The notes below the pieces were generated by a model. That model was not told the origin of the DNA. It saw nothing but the letters and a program-made list of their open reading frames with translations, and made no database searches. A stretch of 28,452 nucleotides of DNA from positions 1 to 28,452 of IMG/VR virus record IMGVR_UViG_3300024262_000192. One strand, 5' to 3'. Below are positions 839 through 16,580 of the stretch, one piece after another. Positions within the stretch are counted from its first letter, which is position 1. Each line of letters begins with the position of its first letter. The translations under genes were made by a program, and so were the position numbers. The stretch comes from a virus.

Positions 839-942
839 GGGGGCGAAAGATATTTGACGAGGAGCCGATAAGCGGCTAAAGCCGCTTCCCCAGTGGATGG
901 TAGGCTCTTCGGACGAGGATGAGATTTCCTCCGCCTCCACCA
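839..942 (+). ncRNA. ssrA-like: Miniature tmRNA-like RNA (tRNA-like domain plus P2, no normal tag domain)
   Basis: The 5' end GGGGGCGAAAGATATTTGAC resembles the tmRNA 5' end (GGGG...AAAGGATTCGACG). The 3' end aligns with the bacterial tmRNA terminus: TTCGGAC, then a T-arm, then GCCTCCACCA. The helices close. The acceptor is 839-845 with 932-938 (7 bp, including the G3:U70 alanine identity pair), with A73 and an encoded CCA. The P2-like helix is 859-866 with 903-910 (8 bp, one G:U). The T-stem is 915-919 with 927-931, with a 7-nt loop TGAGATT. GGAC (911-914) links P2 and the T-arm. Only 867-902 lies inside P2, containing hairpin 870-876/881-887 with TAAA in its loop; a usual tmRNA is over 300 nt. 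T-loop positions 55-56 are non-canonical. It could be functional or an internally deleted relic. Confidence 0.55.
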
Positions 943-1006: not shown

Positions 1007-1289
1007 GGAGCCATGGCGGAATAGGTAGACGCTAGGAAGGTGAGTGGATAAATCCCGAGCTGGCGGGAGAGCCTGAATTGACAGGCCCCTGCGGTGAGCC
1101 TGGATTAACTCTTAATATCCGCAGGTTATAACCCGATAAGACGAGCCATACCCTCCTTGCCCAAAAACCATCTGGGAAATCAGAAAGTACCAGCAAATGG
1201 GGAAAGGTTAGGCGACCGGCATAAGTCCCTAAGCCGAAATTTAAGGGTGAAATAGTCCACATGCGGGGTGCAAATCCCCGCTGGTTCCC
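1007..1289 (+). ncRNA. tRNA-Leu-like element interrupted by a group-I-intron-like core
   Basis: The 5' side GGAGCCA-TG-GCGGAATAGGTAGACGC is a tRNA-Leu acceptor strand and D-arm. The 3' side TGGTTCC (1282-1288) pairs 7/7 with 1007-1013 and is preceded by a T-arm-like hairpin (1263-1281, 6-bp stem, loop TGCAAAT). Between them are segments resembling the tRNA-Leu/tRNA-Ile (IC3) group I introns in the right order: GAATTGACAGG (P-like, 1075-1085), GCGGTGAGCC (Q-like, 1091-1100), TCAGAAAG near 1180, GGTTAGGCGACCGGCA (R-like, 1207-1221) and GGTGAAATAGTCCA (S-like, 1247-1259). A P8-like hairpin pairs CCCT (1227-1230) with AGGG (1244-1247). The P7 5' strand seems shortened, I cannot rebuild an anticodon arm, the discriminator is C, and no CCA is encoded. 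It is therefore degenerate or unusual. Confidence 0.5.
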
Positions 1290-1297
1290 TCGTATTT
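1286..1297 (+). repeat. 12-bp direct repeat, right copy
   Basis: TCCCTCGTATTT repeats 985-996. This copy begins inside the last three bases of the tRNA-like acceptor strand, the classic position of an integrase crossover. Confidence 0.5.
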
Positions 1298-3190: not shown

Positions 3191-3707
3191 GAAACCTACC
3201 AAAACAATGCAGGATTCAAGGGAAGGGGATGACGACTGGAGGCATCTGGCTTGGCGGGCCTGGTTGCACGGAGTACGCAACTATGCAGCACTAGGTCGGC
3301 AGTTCGATAAAGAATGGAGGACGGTCAAGCGGGCCATTATTGCACAATCGCAGGCAGTCCGTGATGCCATCGACTCTGGCGAGGTGGAGGCTCTGGCTGA
3401 ATACGTGGATGGACTTCATGAAGACTTGAGCGAGGCCGACGGGCTGTTTCGCAGTAGCGCAATACAGGACAACGCTAAACTTGGCGCGTTAAAGCATCGT
3501 TCTGACTTACGTGAGAAGATAGCGGCGGCAATGGGCGTGGTCACTAGGCGCCGCGGGGTTGAGCATGCAGGCCGTCTTACGATTAGTGAAGAGGCGCAGC
3601 GGGCCAACGACGAAGAGCTTATAGCGGTACTTAGAAATGGCAATCACCTCAATGGAAGCGAGAGCGGAGATTCGGCGGCGGGCGGAGAAGATAGCGGCAC
3701 AGGATAG
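3174..3707 (+). CDS. Terminase small subunit (putative)
   Basis: The 177-aa protein would recognise the packaging site and recruit the large subunit. Evidence is mainly position: it directly precedes and overlaps the large terminase gene. An N-terminal helix-turn-helix-like stretch, NYAALGRQFDKEWRTVKRAI, supports this, followed by acidic helical segments suited to oligomerisation. The start may be TTG 3174, which has AAGGCGG 6 nt upstream, or ATG 3183 without a clear ribosome binding site. The C-terminus is rich in Gly, Ser and Asp. Confidence 0.65.
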   Translation: MNPMVEKPTKTMQDSREGDDDWRHLAWRAWLHGVRNYAALGRQFDKEWRTVKRAIIAQSQAVRDAIDSGEVEALAEYVDGLHEDLSEADGLFRSSAIQDNAKLGALKHRSDLREKIAAAMGVVTRRRGVEHAGRLTISEEAQRANDEELIAVLRNGNHLNGSESGDSAAGGEDSGTG

Positions 3708-5010
3708 CCTGGCATGGATTAAGCTCCACAAGCCACGGATAGTAGCACCCGAAGGCCAAGATGTCCCATTTGAGCCCTTTGATTATCAGCGGCAAGTCCT
3801 GGTGGCGCTGGATGCTGGCGGGCCGGTTATAGCCAATAAGGGCCGTCAGATAGGTTTCTCGACCTGCGTGATGATTCAGAAGCTCCGGCGGATAATGACC
3901 GCGCCTGGTATCACGGTCCTGGTAGTATCCCGCACGGGGGCAGTAGCAATAGATTTAGTTCGACGGGCGCGGCTAGCCTATCATAGCCTGGCCGAACCCA
4001 AGCCGCAACTGGTTACTGATAATAAACAAGAGCTAGAACTTGACAATGGCAGCCGGATAATAGCAGAGCGGGCTAGCGAAGAAGCCGGCCGCACCTATGC
4101 CGCCTCCGACGTCGTATTTGATGAGTTTGCTCATTGCGCCTGGCAGGAGCAGATGTGGCGGTCGGTGAGGCCGACAGTATCCGCTACTGGCAATATCGTT
4201 GTTATAAGTACACCCAACGGCGAAGGCGATCTATATGAGCAGCTATGGACGCGGATAACGAGGCGGCCCCTTGAGGGCGAGGGGCGCATTGACAGCGACG
4301 ATAGCGATTGGGCGGCCTTCCGCTTGCCCTGGAATGTGCAGCCCAACCGTGACGAAGCCTGGCGGGAGCGGGAGAGGAAAGATTATACCGACGCTGACTG
4401 GCGGCAGGAATACGAGTGCGACTTCCTCTCGGCAGCTGCGGCCATTTTCGCAGCAGAGGCCATTGCCCGATGTATAGAACGTGGTTCTCATTGGCTGCCC
4501 CGTATAATGGGTAGGGCGATAATCGGGGTGGACGTGGCCGGCCAGGGGCGCGATGAGACTGTCATCACGACATTGGATGCCAGCCAGAAGCCATATTGGA
4601 TTACTGAGACCTTCGCCAGCGAGGACATCTCCGCCGTGCCGCTCCAGCGGGAGATAGAGCGCAGGCAGGGCGCGACGGGGGCGGAGGTGGGTATTGATTA
4701 TACCGGCGTAGGCTACGGCGTAGCCGAGAACCTTTCTATTCCGCATAAGCGGGTGCTGTTCACTGGCGGCAGCGCTGTCAGTCAGGATGGCAACCTATGG
4801 CGGGTACCACGGGAGAGGTTGCTATCAAATGCTATACAGGTCATCGAGCGCGGCGATATAGCTATAAATCCAAAGTATCAGGAGCTAATCACCGCATTGC
4901 GCACGGCCCGCTGGGAGAAGCGGCAGGGCAGTTACGTTGACCACCTGGACAGCTTGCTCATCGCCCTGTGGCTGGCAGAAAAGGGCGGGGCTGATTGGTG
5001 GATAGTATAG
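3637..5010 (+). CDS. terL: Terminase large subunit
   Basis: This is the packaging motor ATPase with a headful/cos nuclease, 457 aa. The ATPase shows a deviant Walker A, KGRQIGFST (68-76), Walker B VVFDEFAHC (159-167) and the coupling motif STPNG (191-195). The C-terminal RNase-H-like nuclease shows Asp299 in IIGVDVAGQGRDET, Asp354 in GIDYTGVGYG and the DHLDSLLIALWLA segment with Asp435/Asp438. All expected acidic positions are present and the length is normal. The start overlaps the small subunit by 71 nt. A second in-frame ATG at 3652 is possible. Confidence 0.93.
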   Translation: MAITSMEARAEIRRRAEKIAAQDSLAWIKLHKPRIVAPEGQDVPFEPFDYQRQVLVALDAGGPVIANKGRQIGFSTCVMIQKLRRIMTAPGITVLVVSRTGAVAIDLVRRARLAYHSLAEPKPQLVTDNKQELELDNGSRIIAERASEEAGRTYAASDVVFDEFAHCAWQEQMWRSVRPTVSATGNIVVISTPNGEGDLYEQLWTRITRRPLEGEGRIDSDDSDWAAFRLPWNVQPNRDEAWRERERKDYTDADWRQEYECDFLSAAAAIFAAEAIARCIERGSHWLPRIMGRAIIGVDVAGQGRDETVITTLDASQKPYWITETFASEDISAVPLQREIERRQGATGAEVGIDYTGVGYGVAENLSIPHKRVLFTGGSAVSQDGNLWRVPRERLLSNAIQVIERGDIAINPKYQELITALRTARWEKRQGSYVDHLDSLLIALWLAEKGGADWWIV

Positions 5011-5043: not shown

Positions 5044-7221
5044 ATGGGATTTCCACAACTGTTAGGACGGGCGGGGCGCTGGCTCTGGGGGAGTGACCAG
5101 CCCACCGACGATGAGCGACCCTTGATAATCCAACGTGATTTGATTGCCGAGTATAAGTTGCTCAGTCGGGTATCCGAGCTTCTCATATCCGAGATGGACG
5201 AGAAGCTGGGGATCGAACATCCGCATGACTGGGCCAAGTTTGCCGAGAGCTACGGGGCTTATGGTTGGCTATATGCTTGTGTAAGCACAATAGCGCAGAG
5301 CATCGCCGGGGTTCCGCTGCGTGTCTATCAGAGGCGGGGTGGGGAAGTCAGGGTTGCACCACCGGAGAACGCCTTATCCATAGTGCTTGACCAGGTGAAC
5401 CCACAGGCAGATTGGCCACGCTATTGCCATATGATGGTCGTGGACCTTGAGTTATGCGGCGACCACTTCCTATATAAGGCTTTGGCCGCTAGTAAGAAAC
5501 CGCACCTGATGCAGCTCTGGCGGTTGCGACCCGAATGGGTTAGGGTGCTGCCGGATAAGAACGCGCCGGAAAGCATCGGCGGCTACAAATATATGGTCAA
5601 TAGTAAAGAAATCACCTTTGATACTGACGAGATTGTCCATATTTTATACCCCAATCCGAATAATGATTGGTATGGATTAGGGGCGCTGCCGCCAGCGAAG
5701 GATGCTGCCGATGTAGACAGCTATGCCATAGAGAGTAATCGGGCCTTACTCAAGCGGGGGGCGAACCCACGGGGTTATCTCAAGTTTGATTCTGAAGGCA
5801 TTACGGAGGAGCAGGCACGACAAGCGGCGGAGGATTTCGACAAGCGCTATGCTGGCTCGAAGGCACACCGCACTGTGGGCTTGAGGGGTGCAAGCTTCGA
5901 GCCTATCCAATGGAACCCTCGTGATTTGGAATATAACAACCTACGCAAGATGAATCGGCAGGAAATCGCCGCCGTGTTCAAGGTGCCCTTAGCCCTGCTG
6001 GGTGTAGAGGAACATTCCAAGTACACCCTGCACGAGTACCGCAAGATATTCTGGGAGGATTGCCTAGTTCCAAAGATGCGCCTTATTGAAGGGGCGCTCA
6101 ACGAGTTTCTGGCGCCTGATTTTGGGCGGCAGTTCTTTGTGAAGTTCGACCTATCCCAAGTCCCCGCCCTTCAGCGCAATATCCAGGATGAGGCGCGGCT
6201 GTGGCTTGATATGGTAAAGGGGCGGGTCGCCCTTCCTAATGAGATGCGGGCTGCCCTGCCTGAGCTTTTCGATGAGCCGCTGCCCGCTGGAATAGGCAAT
6301 GTATTCTGGGGCAATTTCAACGAGATACCGCTGGTCTCGGGGCCACGGCCAGAACCAGAGAAGGCATTGATGCCACAAATGGTGTCAGCCTCACAGAAGG
6401 CCCTGCCCTCGGCGGATGAGGATAAAAAAAAACCTGAGCCGCTGGTTAAAGTTTTCACGGAACCCACTGAGACGCTGATATGGAAAGCGTTCATGGACAG
6501 GGTGGAGGGGCTGATGCCGCGAATGCAAGCGGCGGCGGCAGTGATAATGCGTGATGAGACAGATGGGGTGCTGGAGAGGTTGCAGAAGCGCGGAGCAAAG
6601 TCATTACAGACCAAAGGCCTTAATGGTTGGCTGGATGCGATCCTTTTCAATTACGGGGCAGAGGGTAAGCGATTCGTCCATGACCTCCAACCCTATCAGC
6701 TTAATGCCCTGGAGACAGCGGGGACCGAGGCTGTCGCTGAGGTCGGGGTGGACATTACCTTTAATCTGGTAGATCCAGCAGTCATACAGTTCATCAAAGA
6801 CCGGGAAATCGGCCTCAAAACGGTGGCGAAGACGAACTGGACTGCACTGCGCGGCAGCCTGGCTGATGGCTATAAGCAGGGCGAAACTATCCGGCAACTC
6901 AGCGAGCGGGTGGGCGAGTTCCGTGACACCGTAGACTGGCGGGCTGAGAGGATAGCCAGGACGGAAACTATCGGCTGCGCGAACCGGGGGGGCTATGAAG
7001 GCTATAAGCAAGCGGGGATGCCAGGCAAGAAGTGGATACATACGCGAGGTACTGAGAACCCGCGGGAGGCGCATGAGGCTTTGGCCGGCCAGGGGCCGAT
7101 ACCGATAGGCCAGGATTTTGTGAGTGCGCTCGGCGGCAGCGGGCCGTGCCCGGGTAGCTTGGGGCCGCAGGACGATATTTCTTGTTCTTGTACACTAGTG
7201 GCAACAGACTTACCGAAGTAG
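5044..7221 (+). CDS. Portal protein fused to MuF-like head morphogenesis domain
   Basis: The 725-aa protein combines two phage head functions. Residues about 60-420 are an HK97-type portal: YGWLYACVSTIAQSIAGVPL near the N-terminus, then RGYLKFDSEGITEEQA and FKVPLALLGVEEHSKYTLHEYRK. The portal forms the dodecameric DNA channel of the head. Residues about 630-725 are a Phage_Mu_F-like domain: RAERIARTET, GYKQAGMPGKKWIHTR, REAHEAL and the final Cys pair SCSC. MuF proteins are minor head proteins thought to enter the capsid. A helical linker with K/E-rich sequence joins them. Most HK97-like phages keep these as separate genes. RBS AGGAAA sits 7 nt before ATG 5044. Confidence 0.9.
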   Translation: MGFPQLLGRAGRWLWGSDQPTDDERPLIIQRDLIAEYKLLSRVSELLISEMDEKLGIEHPHDWAKFAESYGAYGWLYACVSTIAQSIAGVPLRVYQRRGGEVRVAPPENALSIVLDQVNPQADWPRYCHMMVVDLELCGDHFLYKALAASKKPHLMQLWRLRPEWVRVLPDKNAPESIGGYKYMVNSKEITFDTDEIVHILYPNPNNDWYGLGALPPAKDAADVDSYAIESNRALLKRGANPRGYLKFDSEGITEEQARQAAEDFDKRYAGSKAHRTVGLRGASFEPIQWNPRDLEYNNLRKMNRQEIAAVFKVPLALLGVEEHSKYTLHEYRKIFWEDCLVPKMRLIEGALNEFLAPDFGRQFFVKFDLSQVPALQRNIQDEARLWLDMVKGRVALPNEMRAALPELFDEPLPAGIGNVFWGNFNEIPLVSGPRPEPEKALMPQMVSASQKALPSADEDKKKPEPLVKVFTEPTETLIWKAFMDRVEGLMPRMQAAAAVIMRDETDGVLERLQKRGAKSLQTKGLNGWLDAILFNYGAEGKRFVHDLQPYQLNALETAGTEAVAEVGVDITFNLVDPAVIQFIKDREIGLKTVAKTNWTALRGSLADGYKQGETIRQLSERVGEFRDTVDWRAERIARTETIGCANRGGYEGYKQAGMPGKKWIHTRGTENPREAHEALAGQGPIPIGQDFVSALGGSGPCPGSLGPQDDISCSCTLVATDLPK

Positions 7222-7252: not shown

Positions 7253-8509
7253 ATGGAGAAGGCATTTACGAGGGTAGTCACACTACCCTTCGAGTCCAAG
7301 GCTTATGAGGAAGACGGGGAGATGTTTGTGGAGGGTATCATAACAACCCAGGATATAGATCGCACTGGCGAGGTTATGGACATGAAGGGCCTGAAGAACT
7401 GGGCCGCCTATAAAAAGAACCCCATAGCATTCTGGTGGCACCAGGAACCCATTGGCCACGCGGTGGAATTGGAACGGCGGGATGACAACATATACGTCAA
7501 GGATCAGCTTGCTCCAACTAAACTGGTACTGGAAACCGTCTGGCCGCTACTGAAAAACAAAAGCATTCGGACGATGTCTATCGGCTTCAGTCCCGTGGGG
7601 GAGCCGGCCACCGAAGAGATAGACGGCATTCGGCACTGGACATCCTGGGAATTGCTGGAGCATAGTTTAGTTCCGGTGCCGGCTAATCCGAAGACCAGTG
7701 CCCGTATAGCAAAAGCTCTCGGCCTGGAAATGGATGCCCCGCCCTTATCTACCAGGGCGGTCGTACCTTATCAGAATTTACCCGCCCTGGAAGACACCGA
7801 CCATCCGTGGGACGCGGGGGCTGCCCGCAAGCGCATTGCGGCTTGGGCGAGTTCCGATGGCTCCGGCGACAAGGATAAAATTGACTGGGGCAAGTACAAG
7901 CAGGCATTCTTCTGGTACGATGCAGCCAATGCTGAGAATGTGACCAGTTACAAGTTGCCCTACGCCGACATAGTGGAGGGCGGATTGAAGGCTATCTTTC
8001 GTGGTGTAGTGGCTGTGGTAGCTGTTCTGAAGGGCGGGCGTGGGGGCGCAGACATACCACAGGCCGACCAGGATGCCATCTGGGGCCAATGCGCCAAGTA
8101 TTATAAGAAATGGGACAAGGAGATGCCCGAGAAGGGATTAGATGGCGAGTTGATCTGGAAGGCGGACGAAACAGAATTCATCACACGGCAACAGGAAGCA
8201 GAGATGTGCCGTGGGCGGATAGAGCGCATCGGCGGTGGGATACAGGGAGTATCTGACATCGCCGCGCACTGGCAACGAGCCGGTGCGGGATTTATTGAAG
8301 TAATGGGGGAAGAGTACCTCGAGAAATTAAGTGGGGCACGCAAAAGCTTGGACGCAATACTCCGCGCCGAGGAGCCAGGCAATGAGCCAGGCCAAGGCAA
8401 GTCGGCCATTGAGGCCAATGTGGAGGCTGTACTGGGGGAGATATTTCCCCTTGCCGAGAAGGAGCGTCTGTATGAAGTTTGCATGGCGCGCCTGGGGGTA
8501 GAGGACTAA
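7253..8509 (+). CDS. HK97-family prohead protease with extra C-terminal domain
   Basis: Residues 1-155 are a prohead serine protease: His63 in FWWHQEP (with His69 in GHAVELE) and Ser109 in RTMSIGFSP, followed by the acidic WELLEHSLVPVPANP segment. The enzyme trims the capsid delta domain during head maturation. Residues about 185-290 form a second domain seen appended to phage proteases: PWDAGAARKRI, then QAFFWYDA, SYKLPYADIVEGGL, GGRGGADIPQ and YYKKW. Its role is unknown to me. The last 130 residues are helical and could act as scaffold. It lies directly before the capsid gene, as expected. Length 418 aa, roughly twice a plain protease. Confidence 0.88.
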   Translation: MEKAFTRVVTLPFESKAYEEDGEMFVEGIITTQDIDRTGEVMDMKGLKNWAAYKKNPIAFWWHQEPIGHAVELERRDDNIYVKDQLAPTKLVLETVWPLLKNKSIRTMSIGFSPVGEPATEEIDGIRHWTSWELLEHSLVPVPANPKTSARIAKALGLEMDAPPLSTRAVVPYQNLPALEDTDHPWDAGAARKRIAAWASSDGSGDKDKIDWGKYKQAFFWYDAANAENVTSYKLPYADIVEGGLKAIFRGVVAVVAVLKGGRGGADIPQADQDAIWGQCAKYYKKWDKEMPEKGLDGELIWKADETEFITRQQEAEMCRGRIERIGGGIQGVSDIAAHWQRAGAGFIEVMGEEYLEKLSGARKSLDAILRAEEPGNEPGQGKSAIEANVEAVLGEIFPLAEKERLYEVCMARLGVED

Positions 8510-8536: not shown

Positions 8537-10081
8537 ATGGCATTAACAGATAAGCAGGTCCAGTCCATCGTAGACGGGTTGAACTTACCTGAGAGTGCAA
8601 CAAAGGACGAAATCAAGGCGGCCCTCTACAAGGAGTTTGAGGCAACAGAGAAGGCTGCGAAGAAGGGGACTACTGAAGATCCCCTCCATAGGGCTACTAC
8701 CGCCGCCCTGCAAGAAGTTCAGCAGGCACTGGTAGATAAGGCCATAGATGAACGCAATAAGTCTGAGGTGGAGAATAAGGTCGAGAAGGATTTCACTGAG
8801 GCCGATAAGGATGCGGCTATACGACATGGCGGCGATCTGGCTGAGCGCATTCAGAAGGCAGTGCCGTGGCAGGTGCCTGATAGATTCGAGGTACATGATA
8901 CGGTAGATGCTGACGGCCAGGGTCGCAGTCACCTAGCAAGTGATATGGATAAGGTCTATCTGTTCAAGACTGACGACGAGCAGATAGAGATTTTGAAGCA
9001 AGCCGTGGAGGACTGCTATATCACTGGCATCCTCACGGGCCGCCGGCCCAACAAGACGCGAATGTGGGCGCGGTATGCGAAGTACAATCCCGACTTCGTC
9101 AAGGCTATGGCGACCGTATCCGGCAGCGAGGGTGAGGACTGGGTGCCGACTGGGTTCTCCAGCCAGGTGCTAGACCTAGTGCGCGTACCGCACAGACTAA
9201 TTGAGCAGCATCCCCACATTGTAATGCCAACTGATCCGTACAAGATGCCGACAGTGGCTTCTGACACTACGGTGTATATTGCGGGTGAGCGGACACTGGA
9301 CGATGATGTGAAGCCTCTCGCGTCCAATATCACCACAGCCAACAAGACGCTCAACGCGGTATCCCTGGCAGTTCGCACGGTCTTCTCTGGTGAACTGGAA
9401 GAAGACAGCATCATACCGATACTGCCGACACTGCGGGCCAACCTAGGCTTCGCTTATGGCAATGCCCTTGATGATGCAATGGTAGAGGGAGACCCAACGG
9501 CGACGCATCATAACACCGGCACGGTGCCAGCTGCTGCTGCTGTAACGCGGGCATGGCGGGGCTATGTAGAGTGCGCCTTGACCTACGATGGCAGCTCTAA
9601 TATCCTGGACATGACCGGCGCCTTCACTTTTGACAATGTTGTTAAGTTGCAAGAGCTACTGGCGCAGTACGGTGCTCAGGGTCAAGATACCATGATGTAT
9701 GTAACAGGCTATAAGGGCTATCGCTTGCTCAAGCATCTAAAAGATAGCTCTAACAATAACATTATGGTGGATTATGGGGCGGCCCGCCAGAGCCAGGACG
9801 TGCCGAATCTGGACGGCATACAGGTCATTCGCACTGATAAGGTGCGCGGCGACTTGAATGCTAGTGGCATCTATGATGCCTCCACTACTGCTTTCACCAT
9901 TCTGTTGCTGGTGTACAAGCCGGCGTACATAATCGGCGACAGGCGGTCATTGCAGTTCAACGTGGTGCCTGACTATGAGACCGACCAGCGCAAGCTGATT
10001 GGTATGCTACGCATGGCCTGCACCAACGTGTACGAGTCCAGCACCCACTTCACAGTGGCAATGGGCTACAACTTCACCTAG
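8537..10081 (+). CDS. Major capsid protein (HK97 fold)
   Basis: The 514-aa protein follows the protease and is followed by a terminator, as capsid genes often are. The first roughly 190 residues are helical and charged, a probable delta/scaffold domain to be cleaved. GSEGEDWVPTGFSSQVLDLV then marks the start of the mature HK97-fold shell protein. The C-terminal part YKPAYIIGDRRSLQFNVV...TDQRKLIGMLRMA is the conserved P-domain/A-domain ending. The family call rests on this pattern and on position. RBS GGAG lies about 10 nt before the start. Confidence 0.9.
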   Translation: MALTDKQVQSIVDGLNLPESATKDEIKAALYKEFEATEKAAKKGTTEDPLHRATTAALQEVQQALVDKAIDERNKSEVENKVEKDFTEADKDAAIRHGGDLAERIQKAVPWQVPDRFEVHDTVDADGQGRSHLASDMDKVYLFKTDDEQIEILKQAVEDCYITGILTGRRPNKTRMWARYAKYNPDFVKAMATVSGSEGEDWVPTGFSSQVLDLVRVPHRLIEQHPHIVMPTDPYKMPTVASDTTVYIAGERTLDDDVKPLASNITTANKTLNAVSLAVRTVFSGELEEDSIIPILPTLRANLGFAYGNALDDAMVEGDPTATHHNTGTVPAAAAVTRAWRGYVECALTYDGSSNILDMTGAFTFDNVVKLQELLAQYGAQGQDTMMYVTGYKGYRLLKHLKDSSNNNIMVDYGAARQSQDVPNLDGIQVIRTDKVRGDLNASGIYDASTTAFTILLLVYKPAYIIGDRRSLQFNVVPDYETDQRKLIGMLRMACTNVYESSTHFTVAMGYNFT

Positions 10082-11006: not shown

Positions 11007-11750
11007 ATGAACAAGACCACACGAAAACTGAATAGCGGATTTACATTGATAGAGCTGCTGGTGGTGATAGCGATTATTGCTATCCTGGCGGCGATTCTGT
11101 TTCCTGTCTTTGCCAAAGCGAAGGCTGCGGCACGGACTAGTGTCTGCTTGAGTAATGTCAAGCAACTCACGTTAGCTGGGAGGATGTATCTAGCCGATTA
11201 TAGCGACCAGTTCCCAGCGAATATCGGCTCAGACTCCTGGAATCCGTGGTTCTATTGTATGTCTTCTAATATGAGCGCAGCTACAATCGAATTGCACGGT
11301 GGCACGATGCGTCCGTACTTCGCGGGCGCGATGCAAGGCGCGAACTATGTCGGCGGGGCAGATAATCTTTCCCAGTCCCGCATCATAGTCTGCCCCGACT
11401 GGAAGAACGATATGTTTCCCAGCGGCGGGCCATATACGGATAGCCTCTATGGGATTGATAGCGAGATGGAGAAGTTTAAATCCTACGGCAATAATGGTGC
11501 CCTGCACCTCGCCTATGAGGGCATAATCGGTGACCCCACTTCGTTTGTTATGATAGCCGAGAATTATGCCCAGGGCGGTTATGGATCCATAGAATATCCT
11601 AGCGTCTACCGGCCTGCTTTCCGGCACGCGGGGAACAGGAAGTGCGCGGTTGGATTCATAGATGGGCACGCGGCGATGGTTGAGGGGGGCGTGCTCTGGG
11701 CGGCGGGTAATGCCTCATGGACGATGTGGAACCTCACGGTGATGCCATGA
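11007..11750 (+). CDS. Type II pseudopilin (DUF1559-like, prepilin N-terminal motif)
   Basis: The 247-aa protein begins with a short basic leader ending in Gly11, then [16 protein letters not shown] with Glu16 (mature +5). This is a class III signal cut by prepilin peptidase, and the helix assembles into pilus-like fibres. [14 protein letters not shown] and CLSNVKQL follow, then a globular domain ending with an H...DGH motif (FRHAGNR, then FIDGHAAMV), the H-X9-DG type seen in large bacterial families. The sequence style is Armatimonadota-like. AGAGGAG precedes the start. Its stop overlaps the next start (ATGA), so the two are coupled. It is unusual in a phage late operon; possible roles are receptor masking or modified host pili. 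Confidence 0.9.
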
Positions 11751-13534
11751 AGATAGCCTTGCTGGCAGTTAGCTTGGTAGCCCTTGCCTGTTCTCAGGCA
11801 GGGGCTTATGAAATTTACACAGTGACGCCGCCGGTGAACGACTACCTGGTGGTGGCTGAGGGGCCGTTGCCGCCGACCTGCCAACTCGGCAATGTGCTTG
11901 AAGTGATGGCTTGCCGGGGCGAATATGAACCGGCGAGCTTCATAATACAGACGAAAGCCAACGAGCACCTTGACAACGTGAGGGTGCGTTGCAGCCCATT
12001 GCGGTCCGAGAGCGTGGAACTGCCAATTGGCACAGTAGACGTTCGCATCGTGGACAAGCTCAACGTGGGCTGGGCCATTGGCAACGTGAAGGTGTCCTGG
12101 CATCTGTTATACGACCAGGAGATGATAGATGCTAGGGGCAATGTTCCAGCATACTATCGCGACATGACCGAAGAGCAATACCAGGCATACCGCGAGGACA
12201 TATTCAGAATCTTCGGCAAGTATGGCACCCTCCCCGAAAGAGTTGACGAATATCGGCCCCTCTGGATGGAAAACATACTTGTTAAGGCTTCAGATGCCAA
12301 GTCCCTGCGGCCCATACAGGTAGATGGCAGGGAGCAGTTGTGGTTGACTGTCCATATTCCTCCGGACACAGGGGCGGGGCACTACGAAGCGACGATACGA
12401 ATAGTTCCTGGCAATGCGCCAGCGGCCAAGGTAAAGCTAAGGGTCTGGGTGCCAGACATCGATCTGTTGGAGCCGGTCGAGACCTATTCAATCTATAATC
12501 CCACATTTACCTTTGAGGACCACCAGGCGCAGGGCTTCCGGGATATGTACTTCCCAGTTTCAGACGAGGAGTTCGTTCTGGAGCTACGAAATATGGTAGC
12601 GCACGGATGTACCAACCCCAACTTCCACGATGGGATTGCGGCGCGCCCAGACGGAACGCTAGACTATACGATCCTTGAAAAGCTGCTGGCTCTGCGCGAG
12701 CGGGCGGGGGTACCCAAGGGCCAGTTATTCCTTATCGACAATCCTGTTATAACTGGCCGTAAATTGCAGGCCGGCGAATATGAGCGGAATATCAGGTATG
12801 TGAAGGAGATTCAGGCGTGGGCAACGGCGCGAGGCTATGGGCAGGTCTACTTTACTGGGGCGGACGAGGCCGGTGGCCAGCGGCTGCTTGACGAATACGA
12901 GGCCTTCAAGAGTGTGGAGGAGGCAGGTTCAGGTATATGGGTGGCAACACCGCCCTCGTTTCACGAGTTGGTGTGGGATGTGCTGGAGATTCCGATTGTA
13001 GCCTATCCTGGCATGATAGCGATGAATAACTCCGTAGAGCATATCCTGCGGACACCGGACGTGGTAGCCAATCCCAAACCCTACCGGCACTGCCAGGTCG
13101 AAAAGGCTATGACCACCGACTGGCAGAACCTCATCGCCATACCTCATAGCCAGGGGTTCCGGTTCTTTCAATACTTCGACGGGTGGCTCTTCCCTGGAGA
13201 ACACCGGCGGGCGCGGGGATTTGGAATGTGGCTGACGGGAGTAGATGGGACAATGACCTGGAGTTATGCCGGCATCAAGCACCACGGCAGGGTGCGAGAA
13301 GCGGGCGAGGGGATCAGCCATCGGAACATGGTCATGCGGGTCAAGGGCGGCGTGCTGGACACGCTGTGCTGGGAAGCCTACCGCGAGGGCTATGATGATT
13401 CGCGATACATAGCTACGCTGTTGGCAGTGGGCGGCAAGGAGTGGCTGGAGGCACAAAATCAGGAACGGATAATGAGTGGGAACCTGGACGAGCTGCGGCG
13501 GGACGTGGCGGAGAAGATATTGAAACTACAATAA
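11747..13534 (+). CDS. Secreted glycoside-hydrolase-like protein (DUF4091 type)
   Basis: The 595-aa protein starts with a signal peptide, [20 protein letters not shown]; the Cys could also make it a lipoprotein. The N-terminal half is a beta-sandwich ([11 protein letters not shown], then [20 protein letters not shown]) and the second half a TIM-barrel-like region. It ends in [19 protein letters not shown], the pattern of the DUF4091 C-terminal domain. Such proteins are found mainly in polysaccharide-degrading bacteria and their substrate is unknown. ATG 11747 overlaps the pseudopilin stop and gives a clean signal peptide, so I prefer it to the in-frame ATG at 11717. Export implies action on the host surface or outside the cell rather than in the virion. 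Confidence 0.8.
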
Positions 13535-13547
13535 GGGGGCGTTTTAG

Positions 13548-14465
13548 TTGGAAAGATTATATACACGTTTTATCTTTACACCGACAGGGCCGGCACACAT
13601 CGGGCACGCCTTCACTGCCCGCATTAATTACTATCTTGCCAGGCGGACTGGCGGCGATTGGTATTGCGGGATTGAAGATCTGCTGGCGATGCAAAGCTTA
13701 TGGTATCTGCGCGAGGCAAAAGCTCCGGGCTATGAGACCGCAGCCCGAGCATGGGCACGGGAAAACATATATGATCTGGAATGGCTTGGATTACAGAGCA
13801 ACGGCGCAATGGTTATGTATCAGTCTGACCGCAAACAGTTGGTGGATTGGTACTACAAACTGTTTGGGGACGAGCGCGATTTCGGCCCCTGGCCGCCAGA
13901 GTGGAGCGACGGGCTGTCCAGCAATACCAAGGGCATCTATTTGGGGCTTCCTGCGATTGGCATGGAACATCCCTATGTGGTGCTGAGCCGCGTAGTATCA
14001 GACATAATAACTGGCCGCAATTTGGTGTTGCGGGGCAAGGGATTGGAACGCGAGACGGGGTTGTATCGTTATTTTGCCGAGAAGATATGTGCTGGTTATG
14101 ATGGCATTACCCCACCCGAACTGGCTTATATTCCAGAGATAAGGCGAGCTGGCGCTGGGGTTCTGTCATCGGCGGCGGAGAAGGCTACCGCTGGATGGTT
14201 CATAGCCGACGTTCGGGCGGCGGGAAGAACTGCCACCGAGCTGCACCAATTCCTGGACTGGGCGACGATGACCGCTGAAGCCCGCGAGAATGCCCGGCAA
14301 TGGTTTGCATTGCGGAAGGGACCCCAAGTGGAGAAAGCATCCAGCCTCATGTCTACCGTGGCTGGTGCTGCCGCCGTATTCGCCGCCCTGGTCGACAAAG
14401 ACGAAATCAGTATAGACGATGATGACTGGTTCCGCTTCCTTGAGACCGGGGAGGTGGGGGAGTAA
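13548..14465 (+). CDS. Glutamyl-tRNA-synthetase-like protein (Glu-Q-RS-sized)
   Basis: The 305-aa protein starts TRFIFTPTGPAHIGHAFTAR, the class I GluRS signature RFAPSPTG-x-HIGHA with a perfect HIGH (17-20). Next come ARRTGG, GIED (Glu43, equivalent of RIED), WLGL and YQSDR. VVSDIITG (149-156) and LRG (Arg162) match the GluRS VVDDHLMG...IRGEE segment. The KMSKS-equivalent near 204-212 is degenerate (VLSSAAEKA). The length equals the anticodon-domain-less Glu-Q-RS, which glutamylates queuosine in tRNA-Asp, but the zinc site is not obvious. It may activate glutamate for an unknown acceptor. Start is TTG 13548, with AAGGGGG upstream; it follows the previous stop by 13 nt and overlaps the next gene (TAATG). 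Confidence 0.8.
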   Translation: MERLYTRFIFTPTGPAHIGHAFTARINYYLARRTGGDWYCGIEDLLAMQSLWYLREAKAPGYETAARAWARENIYDLEWLGLQSNGAMVMYQSDRKQLVDWYYKLFGDERDFGPWPPEWSDGLSSNTKGIYLGLPAIGMEHPYVVLSRVVSDIITGRNLVLRGKGLERETGLYRYFAEKICAGYDGITPPELAYIPEIRRAGAGVLSSAAEKATAGWFIADVRAAGRTATELHQFLDWATMTAEARENARQWFALRKGPQVEKASSLMSTVAGAAAVFAALVDKDEISIDDDDWFRFLETGEVGE

Positions 14466-15685
14466 TGGAGATAGGCTTGAATGGCTACCGGGGGATAGAC
14501 AACGATGATAAGATGGCTGAGCTTCAGGACTTCGGTTGCGGCTGGATAAAAATCAGCTTCGGGCTGGCGGAATTGTCTGATGGTGATAAGGGCGAGATAA
14601 TCCGCTTCGAGCAAATGCAGGTTGATGATCTGCTGGCCAGGGCGGAGAGATTAGCCGAGTATGGGATGCGGACAGTAGTGGATGTGCGCACTACCAGCCA
14701 ACTACTCCACAAGCTACCCCGTGAGCGGATGAAGGAATTGACCGAAGCGGAGCGCGCCGACTGGGAGGCGGCCCCAGATATTGAGCGGCGGCGGATGCTC
14801 AGGGAGCGCACCAAGCGGTTGAACCTTGATATAGTTGATCAAATCGGCCAGATGACCTATGACCTAGTTGGCCAGTGCGAGTACATCATCAAGGACTGGG
14901 AATGGTGGGGAGAGCACGGTTGCCCGCACGTGACGATGGGGACACTGCCGAGTGGTGATTACAGCCTATTCCTGTCGGCCTTCTATGGTGCGGCGAAACA
15001 AGCTGCCCCAGGTTGCCGAGTGTGGAATGGGGGGGACGGTGTCCAGCCTAATACGCACTGGTTGGGTTTGATGGTCAGGCCGCCGCAGGCCACCGAACAG
15101 GAGCACATGTGGTTCCCACAGGGCGTAGGCGAATATTTCGACGTTTGCAACTGGCATCCGTACTTGGTGACCCTGGGGCCAGGGAATGAGGACTACGGGC
15201 TATCCGATGTCATCGGCAAGTTTGATGAGGTCTTCGGAGAGTCGCGCAAGCTGCTTGATTTCTATGGCAAGGGCCAACCCTTCGCCTCGACGGAGTGGGG
15301 CCTGGCGATGGTAGATGATGTGGTGCTGGAGGCATTGAAGGATCCCCAGGGCCGCCCCATTCTGAAAAGCTATACCTACACGCCGGGCTATGTGGCCCTG
15401 CCCGTGAGCCACAGTGCAGAATGGTTTGAGGCTTGCCTGGAGTGCTTTGACCGGCACAAATTTGAGGTGCTGTGCATCCATAGCTATACCGAGGAATATG
15501 ATAAAGACACAGCGATGCGCGAGGCTAATCACTGGGGTAGTTTCTGTGGACTAAAGGACTTATACGGGACTAAGCGGCCCGCCTGGTATGTGGTACGGGA
15601 CCGGGCGCGGGCAGGCTATGGCACAGCATTTAAGGGGGAAAGCAATGAGCCACTGGGAGATCAAGCTGACAGCGAATGCGTATGA
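14465..15685 (+). CDS. Clan GH-A-like TIM-barrel glycosidase
   Basis: The 406-aa protein reads as an (alpha/beta)8 barrel: LNGYRGIDNDDKMAEL and WIKISFGLAEL at the start, MRTVVDVRTTSQLL, then the likely acid/base in WEWWGEHG (Glu146) and the likely nucleophile in FASTEWGLA (Glu277). NWHPYLV (229-235) is typical of GH5/GH39/GH42-like enzymes. The canonical NEP before the acid/base is replaced, so the exact family is uncertain. There is no signal peptide, unlike the DUF4091-like neighbour. Its start overlaps the GluRS-like stop and its end overlaps the next gene by 41 nt. Confidence 0.7.
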   Translation: MEIGLNGYRGIDNDDKMAELQDFGCGWIKISFGLAELSDGDKGEIIRFEQMQVDDLLARAERLAEYGMRTVVDVRTTSQLLHKLPRERMKELTEAERADWEAAPDIERRRMLRERTKRLNLDIVDQIGQMTYDLVGQCEYIIKDWEWWGEHGCPHVTMGTLPSGDYSLFLSAFYGAAKQAAPGCRVWNGGDGVQPNTHWLGLMVRPPQATEQEHMWFPQGVGEYFDVCNWHPYLVTLGPGNEDYGLSDVIGKFDEVFGESRKLLDFYGKGQPFASTEWGLAMVDDVVLEALKDPQGRPILKSYTYTPGYVALPVSHSAEWFEACLECFDRHKFEVLCIHSYTEEYDKDTAMREANHWGSFCGLKDLYGTKRPAWYVVRDRARAGYGTAFKGESNEPLGDQADSECV

Positions 15686-15998: not shown

Positions 15999-16580
15999 AT
16001 GGCATCTGATATTGTGACGGTAGAAAGTGCAGCGACATACCTGGGCATTGATTCTGATAGCGGCAGCAATGAACCGCTGCTGACCATGCTCTGCGGGGCA
16101 GTCAACCAGCGCATTGAGGACTATTGCGGGCGCACTTTCGCCAAGGCGCGATACACTGAATATCACACAGTTGACATCAACACCGATCATATCTATGTGA
16201 ATAACCCACCTATCATTACACTGCATAGCCTGATTGATGATGCTATGGTGAGTGAGCGCAGCATAACCGTTGCTGATGATGTGCACACCAATAACGGCGA
16301 GAACTTCGGCGAAATCCGCCTATGGAATACTGAGGGTACATTCGCGAGGGGAGAGAGGTCGGTGCTGGCGGTTTATACGGGCGGATACGGAGACGATGAC
16401 CTGCCCTCTGATCTGGTACTGGCAGCAGCGCAGATGGTGGCCGCCCTGTGGGAAGGGCCGGAGATGCTAGTACGGCGGCGGCAGGGCATTGATGGACAGC
16501 AGATAGAATGGCGCGATGACTCAATTCCGCCACAGGTCAAACCAGTGCTGGACAAGTATAGGCGGGTGTGGATTGTCTAA
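15999..16580 (+). CDS. Head-tail connector protein (gp6-like)
   Basis: The 193-aa protein has the Phage_connect/gp6-like pattern: VESAATYLGID, then LLTMLCGAVNQRIEDYCGRTFAK. A beta region contains NPPIITLHSL and VYTGGYGDDDLPSDLVLAAAQMVA, with a C-terminal helix. These proteins form a ring under the portal. The match to the family's N-terminal helical repeat plus its position support the call. Its stop overlaps the next start (TAATG). Confidence 0.85.
   Translation: MASDIVTVESAATYLGIDSDSGSNEPLLTMLCGAVNQRIEDYCGRTFAKARYTEYHTVDINTDHIYVNNPPIITLHSLIDDAMVSERSITVADDVHTNNGENFGEIRLWNTEGTFARGERSVLAVYTGGYGDDDLPSDLVLAAAQMVAALWEGPEMLVRRRQGIDGQQIEWRDDSIPPQVKPVLDKYRRVWIV

Follow-up and report, generated by a model that had tools for sequence, protein, structure and literature searches.

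A GluRS/GluQRS-like catalytic-domain protein with a degenerate KMSKS loop in the head-gene region of a siphovirus-like contig

Genes and RNAs of the window

The window analyzed here, the whole stretch of 28,452 bases, is one IMG/VR virus record, IMGVR_UViG_3300024262_000192. It is a siphovirus-like contig, in which family matches revealed a tailed-phage structural module. Near its left end are a ParB-like gene and two genes resembling DNA methyltransferases. The features considered are as follows.

839-942, plus strand: tmRNA-like RNA of 104 nt, without a tag-coding part (Rfam RF00023; fold)
1007-1292, plus strand: tRNA-Leu-like RNA in two parts, a 5′ half and a 3′ half, about 200 nt apart (acceptor and T-arm pairing)
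3637-5010: large terminase
5044-7221: portal
7253-8509: head protease
8537-10081: major capsid
11007-11750, plus strand: prepilin-like protein with an N-methylation motif, DUF1559-like (Pfam PF07963, 3e-9; PF07596, 1e-4, just under its cut-off)
11717-13534, plus strand: secreted glycoside-hydrolase-like protein with weak GH123 similarity (sub-threshold Pfam; N-terminal hydrophobic leader read in the sequence)
13533-13539, plus strand: AAGGGGG, ribosome-binding-site-like, 8 nt before a TTG start (read in the sequence)
13548-14465, plus strand: GluRS/GluQRS-like catalytic-domain protein of 305 aa (ORF; PF00749; codon-position GC)
14465-15685, plus strand: 406-aa protein resembling a TIM-barrel glycosidase (by eye only)
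15999-16580: head-tail adaptor
from 16946: neck protein
from 18243: tail tube
from 19765: tape measure

As listed, the capsid-to-adaptor interval is filled by accessory genes, starting at 11007, 11717, 13548, and 14465, that overlap or nearly touch each other. The TTG start of the GluRS-like gene lies 13 bases past the preceding stop, and it ends on the base with which the next gene's ATG begins (14465), the start codon thereby overlapping the stop. The GC contents at its three codon positions (0.59, 0.48, and 0.60) resembled those of the neighboring genes. An intact frame of 305 codons in such an operon-like gene run argues against a dead gene, and the ORF at 13548-14465 is a real gene. The 406-aa protein encoded downstream showed no family match in Pfam or NCBIfam. 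We also observed that the prepilin-like, GH123-like, and glycosidase-like genes (11007-15685) are inserted between the phage capsid and head-tail adaptor genes. Prepilin and glycoside hydrolase genes of this kind, which we take to be abundant in Planctomycetota, Verrucomicrobiota/Lentisphaerota, and Armatimonadota, suggest a host in one of these groups.

Family assignment and active-site residues

Pfam PF00749 (tRNA-synt_1c) matched residues 5-103 of the 305-aa protein (model positions 3-85 of 314) with 39.2 bits against a cut-off of 23.4 (E 5e-10). NCBIfam gave 10 matches, all to class I synthetases, and nine were to models for GluQRS, GluRS, or GlnRS. The best match was GluQRS (E 3.7e-9; 36.4 bits versus a cut-off of 250), followed by GluRS; the protein reached neither the GluQRS equivalog TIGR03838 (34.3 versus 276.7 bits) nor the GluRS equivalog TIGR00464 (25.7 versus 289.95 bits). 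In BLASTP, residues 4-256 were 27% identical (E 5e-10) to a GluRS (L002) encoded on a virus contig of 436 kb, and an alphaproteobacterial GluQRS (L239) was matched with E 1e-10. Profile-profile comparison with 21 GluRS by hhalign covered residues 3-98 (E 1e-11). The match to class Ic synthetases is carried by residues 3-110. Residues 110-305 alone gave about −3 bits against the GluRS profile; that is, the C-terminal two thirds do not score. The fold's second half, and with it the placement of the KMSKS loop, therefore rests on the alignment and an alignment-biased model.

No anticodon-binding domain was found in the 305 residues, of which about 95 follow the KMSKS position without a domain match, or in the next ORF. 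A zinc site was also absent, as the stretch joining the fold's two halves has no cysteines; zinc cysteines are not universal in GluQRS. These results bear out the original prediction of a GluRS/GluQRS-like protein of near-GluQRS size that consists of the catalytic domain only. We conclude that the protein very probably belongs to the GluRS/GluQRS branch, as a catalytic domain that stands alone and diverged long ago.

Two structure models bear on the Rossmann catalytic fold. AlphaFold2 supplied with GluRS rows gave a model with pLDDT 63.6 and pTM 0.60, best at residues 1-40, 61-90, 141-190, and 221-240. In the comparison with GluQRS proposed in the original prediction, Foldseek with this model retrieved GluRS first, followed by GluQRS (1nzj and 4a91) and GlnRS (E 3e-6 to 1e-3; query TM mostly 0.36-0.47), which is partly circular and weak evidence because the GluRS alignment imposes the fold. 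The single-sequence model (pLDDT 37) was uninformative.

Active-site residues were assigned with alignment A2, which comprised the 305-aa protein and 21 GluRS from IMG/VR contigs and contained 63 near-invariant columns, defined as those from which at most one GluRS departs. The following segments were located.

13596-13607, plus strand: HIGH signature, residues 17-20 (alignment A2)
13671-13679, plus strand: residues 42-44, IED of the glutamate site; the next two residues are LL, not TD (alignment A2)
14031-14036, plus strand: conserved RG, R162 and G163, followed by KG, not [DE][DE]H (alignment A2)
14160-14174, plus strand: KMSKS position reading VLSSA, residues 205-209, with the catalytic Lys and the next Arg lost (alignment)

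As predicted from the sequence, HIGH, IED, and the LRG arginine (R162, 14031-14033) are kept and the KMSKS loop is degenerate. Depending on the alignment, 30 or 31 of the 63 near-invariant columns are kept in the 305-aa protein; for the same columns, GluQRS from bacterial genomes keep 42-49, GlnRS 30-31, and three further GluRS 49-57. The kept residues include R7, PTG, H17, G19, E43, D44, W79, Q92, D152, R162, and G163, and the IED is of the GluRS type, as opposed to FDD in GlnRS. Relative to GluRS, the changes are APS to IFT, RIEDTD to GIEDLL, the next R to Q49, VDD to VSD, RG[DE][DE]H to RGKG, and KLSKR to VLSSA. With residues assigned from GluRS structures, we presume that the glutamate side of the site is largely kept and the ATP side is not. 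The earlier description of an intact glutamate/ATP site was therefore too strong, since about half of the columns that are near-invariant in GluRS, that of the catalytic lysine among them, differ in the 305-aa protein. RIEDTD, RG[DE][DE]H, and the KMSKS lysine, all of them altered, belong to the ATP/glutamate site.

The first lysine of the KMSKS loop is dispensable in the GluRS/GluQRS/GlnRS branch, as one GlnRS reads VMSKR and the GluQRS compared with it reads RLAKR. The second lysine is near-invariant and is a serine in the 305-aa protein. Human cytoplasmic TyrRS, a different synthetase in which the first loop lysine is kept, is an active enzyme. It shares with the 305-aa protein the replacement of the second loop lysine by serine, its loop reading KMSSS (PMC2813244), indicating that a serine at this position leaves activity possible.

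Known systems and search for relatives

Among known systems, GluQRS/YadB (tRNA glutamyl-Q34 synthetase, TIGR03838) acts on tRNA-Asp, transferring glutamate to its queuosine, without an anticodon-binding domain, and like the 305-aa protein it is a stand-alone catalytic domain of similar length. The PTGP-HxGHA signature is common to the 305-aa protein and the alphaproteobacterial GluQRS. However, GluQRS has RLAKR at the KMSKS position and zinc-site cysteines, both of which the 305-aa protein lacks. Similarly, bacterial GluRS (GltX, TIGR00464), including those of jumbo phages, share the HIGH region, IED, and RG with it, whereas their anticodon-binding domain and KLSKR have been lost in the 305-aa protein.

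Ordinary GluRS occur in large phages, as seen in the IMG/VR virus contigs (L002-L035) and documented for huge phages (PMC7162821). The view that such paralogues are rare outside giant phages was only partly right, because a phage contig of ~51 kb (L033, 9998-10846; L035, 1772-2620), which also has DnaB-like and primase-like genes, encodes a 282-aa GluRS catalytic domain that stands alone. This protein, likewise without an anticodon-binding domain, passes the GluRS cut-off (361 bits) and has an intact KMSKR. The finding of a GluRS reduced to its catalytic domain in a mid-sized phage is therefore not unique. The 305-aa protein is set apart from the L033 protein by the loss of the KMSKS lysine and by its overall divergence.

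No close relative of the 305-aa protein was found in the collections searched, which may leave out sequences closely akin to the window. Five scans of IMG/VR aimed at it and a single-protein scan of an 84,980-species genome collection found no relative. Of these, the IMG/VR motif scans with PTGPxHIGHA and TGxxHxGH..IED gave 0 stretches each, and PTGxxHxGxx[FLIMV]TA gave 6 stretches with no synthetase in any. Searching for sister phages by the portal protein led to 69 loci, all distant, and neither the GluRS-like gene nor its accessory neighbors occurred in any of them. GenBank phages showed weak N-terminal matches only. Several candidates were rejected. Among the matches listed for the genome motif scan, those examined were valyl-tRNA synthetases. 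A scan with an N-terminal GluRS alignment yielded 34 loci, whose aligned frames were ordinary GluRS with LSKR-type loops. In a sample of 201 genomes from the phylum of a Chloroflexota locus, matches lay only at the N-terminus of longer, GluRS-size frames, and plasmid matches were only of the GluQRS and TrpRS type.

Proposed function and the two RNAs

As the best, though tentative, explanation, we propose a phage accessory domain derived from GluRS/GluQRS, for which glutamate binding is likely, adenylation is doubtful, and the function is predicted only. In this view, the accessory gene among the head genes encodes a class Ic catalytic domain of GluRS/GluQRS type in which the Rossmann pocket and the glutamate-recognizing residues R7, T11, E43, and R162 would be kept, and glutamate binding would probably be retained. 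Glutamyl-adenylate, if still made, would form slowly through a KMSSS-like loop, as in human cytoplasmic TyrRS. The glutamate may then be handed to an acceptor without recognition by an anticodon-binding domain, the simplest candidate being a host tRNA, as for GluQRS. We regard such a glutamate-activating mechanism as possible but open to considerable doubt. The claim is a lead, since it concerns a single sequence without relatives.

The main rival, almost as likely, is a catalytically dead relic or a repurposed binder, that is, a domain captured from GluRS/GluQRS that lost adenylation together with the KMSKS lysine and now decays, or that binds glutamate, a nucleotide, or tRNA, for example as a decoy occupying host tRNA. 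VLSSA at the KMSKS loop and the loss of RIEDTD and RG[DE][DE]H point to this reading, as does the lack of a relative showing selection on a working site. However, the intact 305-codon frame, the good ribosome-binding site, and the neighbor-like codon-position pattern speak against it, as do the kept HIGH, R7, E43, D44, and R162. The missing anticodon domain is also consistent with a non-translational ligase, whose activated substrate, glutamate or some other acid, would be joined to a virion protein, a DNA base, or a small molecule, comparable to MshC with cysteine. The position of the gene between capsid and adaptor, beside glycosidase-like and prepilin-like genes, fits such a role, and synthetase-derived ligases with non-tRNA acceptors exist as a precedent (PMC9437257). 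Nevertheless, no partner gene indicates a substrate, the argument is positional, and the activation itself is putative; we consider this reading unlikely. Still less probably, the protein represents a new phage subfamily of ligases resembling class Ic synthetases, for which glutamate activation would not require the KMSKS lysine and the acceptor would be non-standard, perhaps an unusual phage RNA or a virion protein.

The original prediction had also linked the gene to tRNA-like and tmRNA-like RNAs in the window. If the protein were a synthetase dedicated to these phage RNAs (839-942 or 1007-1292), this would accord with the tRNA-like ends on both and with the encoded CCA on the former. G3-U70 and A73, which are present in the 839-942 RNA as judged from its sequence and fold, are the classic alanine identity elements. 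This alanine identity argues against its charging by the GluRS-like protein; moreover, the D-arm of the 1007 RNA is of the leucine type, and the GluRS-like gene and the RNA genes are 12 kb apart. We consider this the most improbable of the readings.

Synthetase paralogues outside huge phages have been little studied. A small-phage protein without an anticodon domain and without the KMSKS lysine would be a natural experiment on how far the class I active site can be reduced with a function still retained. If glutamate were ligated to something new, one more acceptor would join the short list for synthetase-derived ligases.

The tmRNA-like RNA at 839-942 held up and looks like a genuine molecule. 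Rfam tmRNA RF00023 matched it over its full length (E 3e-13 for the window) with 40.8 bits, slightly short of the gathering score of 47; ARAGORN in its standard mode and Rfam with gathering thresholds applied listed no RNAs in the window. The tRNA-like domain is complete, with G3-U70, A73, and the encoded CCA, and no tag-coding region or pseudoknots were found in the 104 nt. The inner part folded as one extended helix with two hairpins, of 7 bp and 3 bp, and the RNA folded better than all 200 shuffles (z −4.2). Read by eye, the D-loop GG is changed to AU and the T-loop UC to GA, allowing U19-A56 instead of G19-C56, and these changes apparently compensate each other. A pattern for short tmRNAs of this kind had no other match in IMG/VR. 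The RNA is perhaps more unusual than the GluRS-like gene.

The second RNA, placed at 1007-1289 in the original prediction, did not match as a tmRNA and instead looks like tRNA-Leu-like halves (1007-1292), with a leucine-type D-arm and the T-loop UGCAAAU. It is flanked by a 12-nt direct repeat, TCCCTCGTATTT, with copies at 985-996 and 1286-1297. A group I intron at this position was unsupported by Rfam, and ARAGORN with loosened thresholds gave poor folds only, which overlapped one another. Of its D-arm, 22 bases are common to a tRNA-like stretch in Lactobacillus phage Lenus (L256, about 298-410). This stretch of ~110 nt, unannotated and not called by ARAGORN, lies inside a tRNA cluster and has the same leucine-type D-arm and T-loop UGCAAAU.
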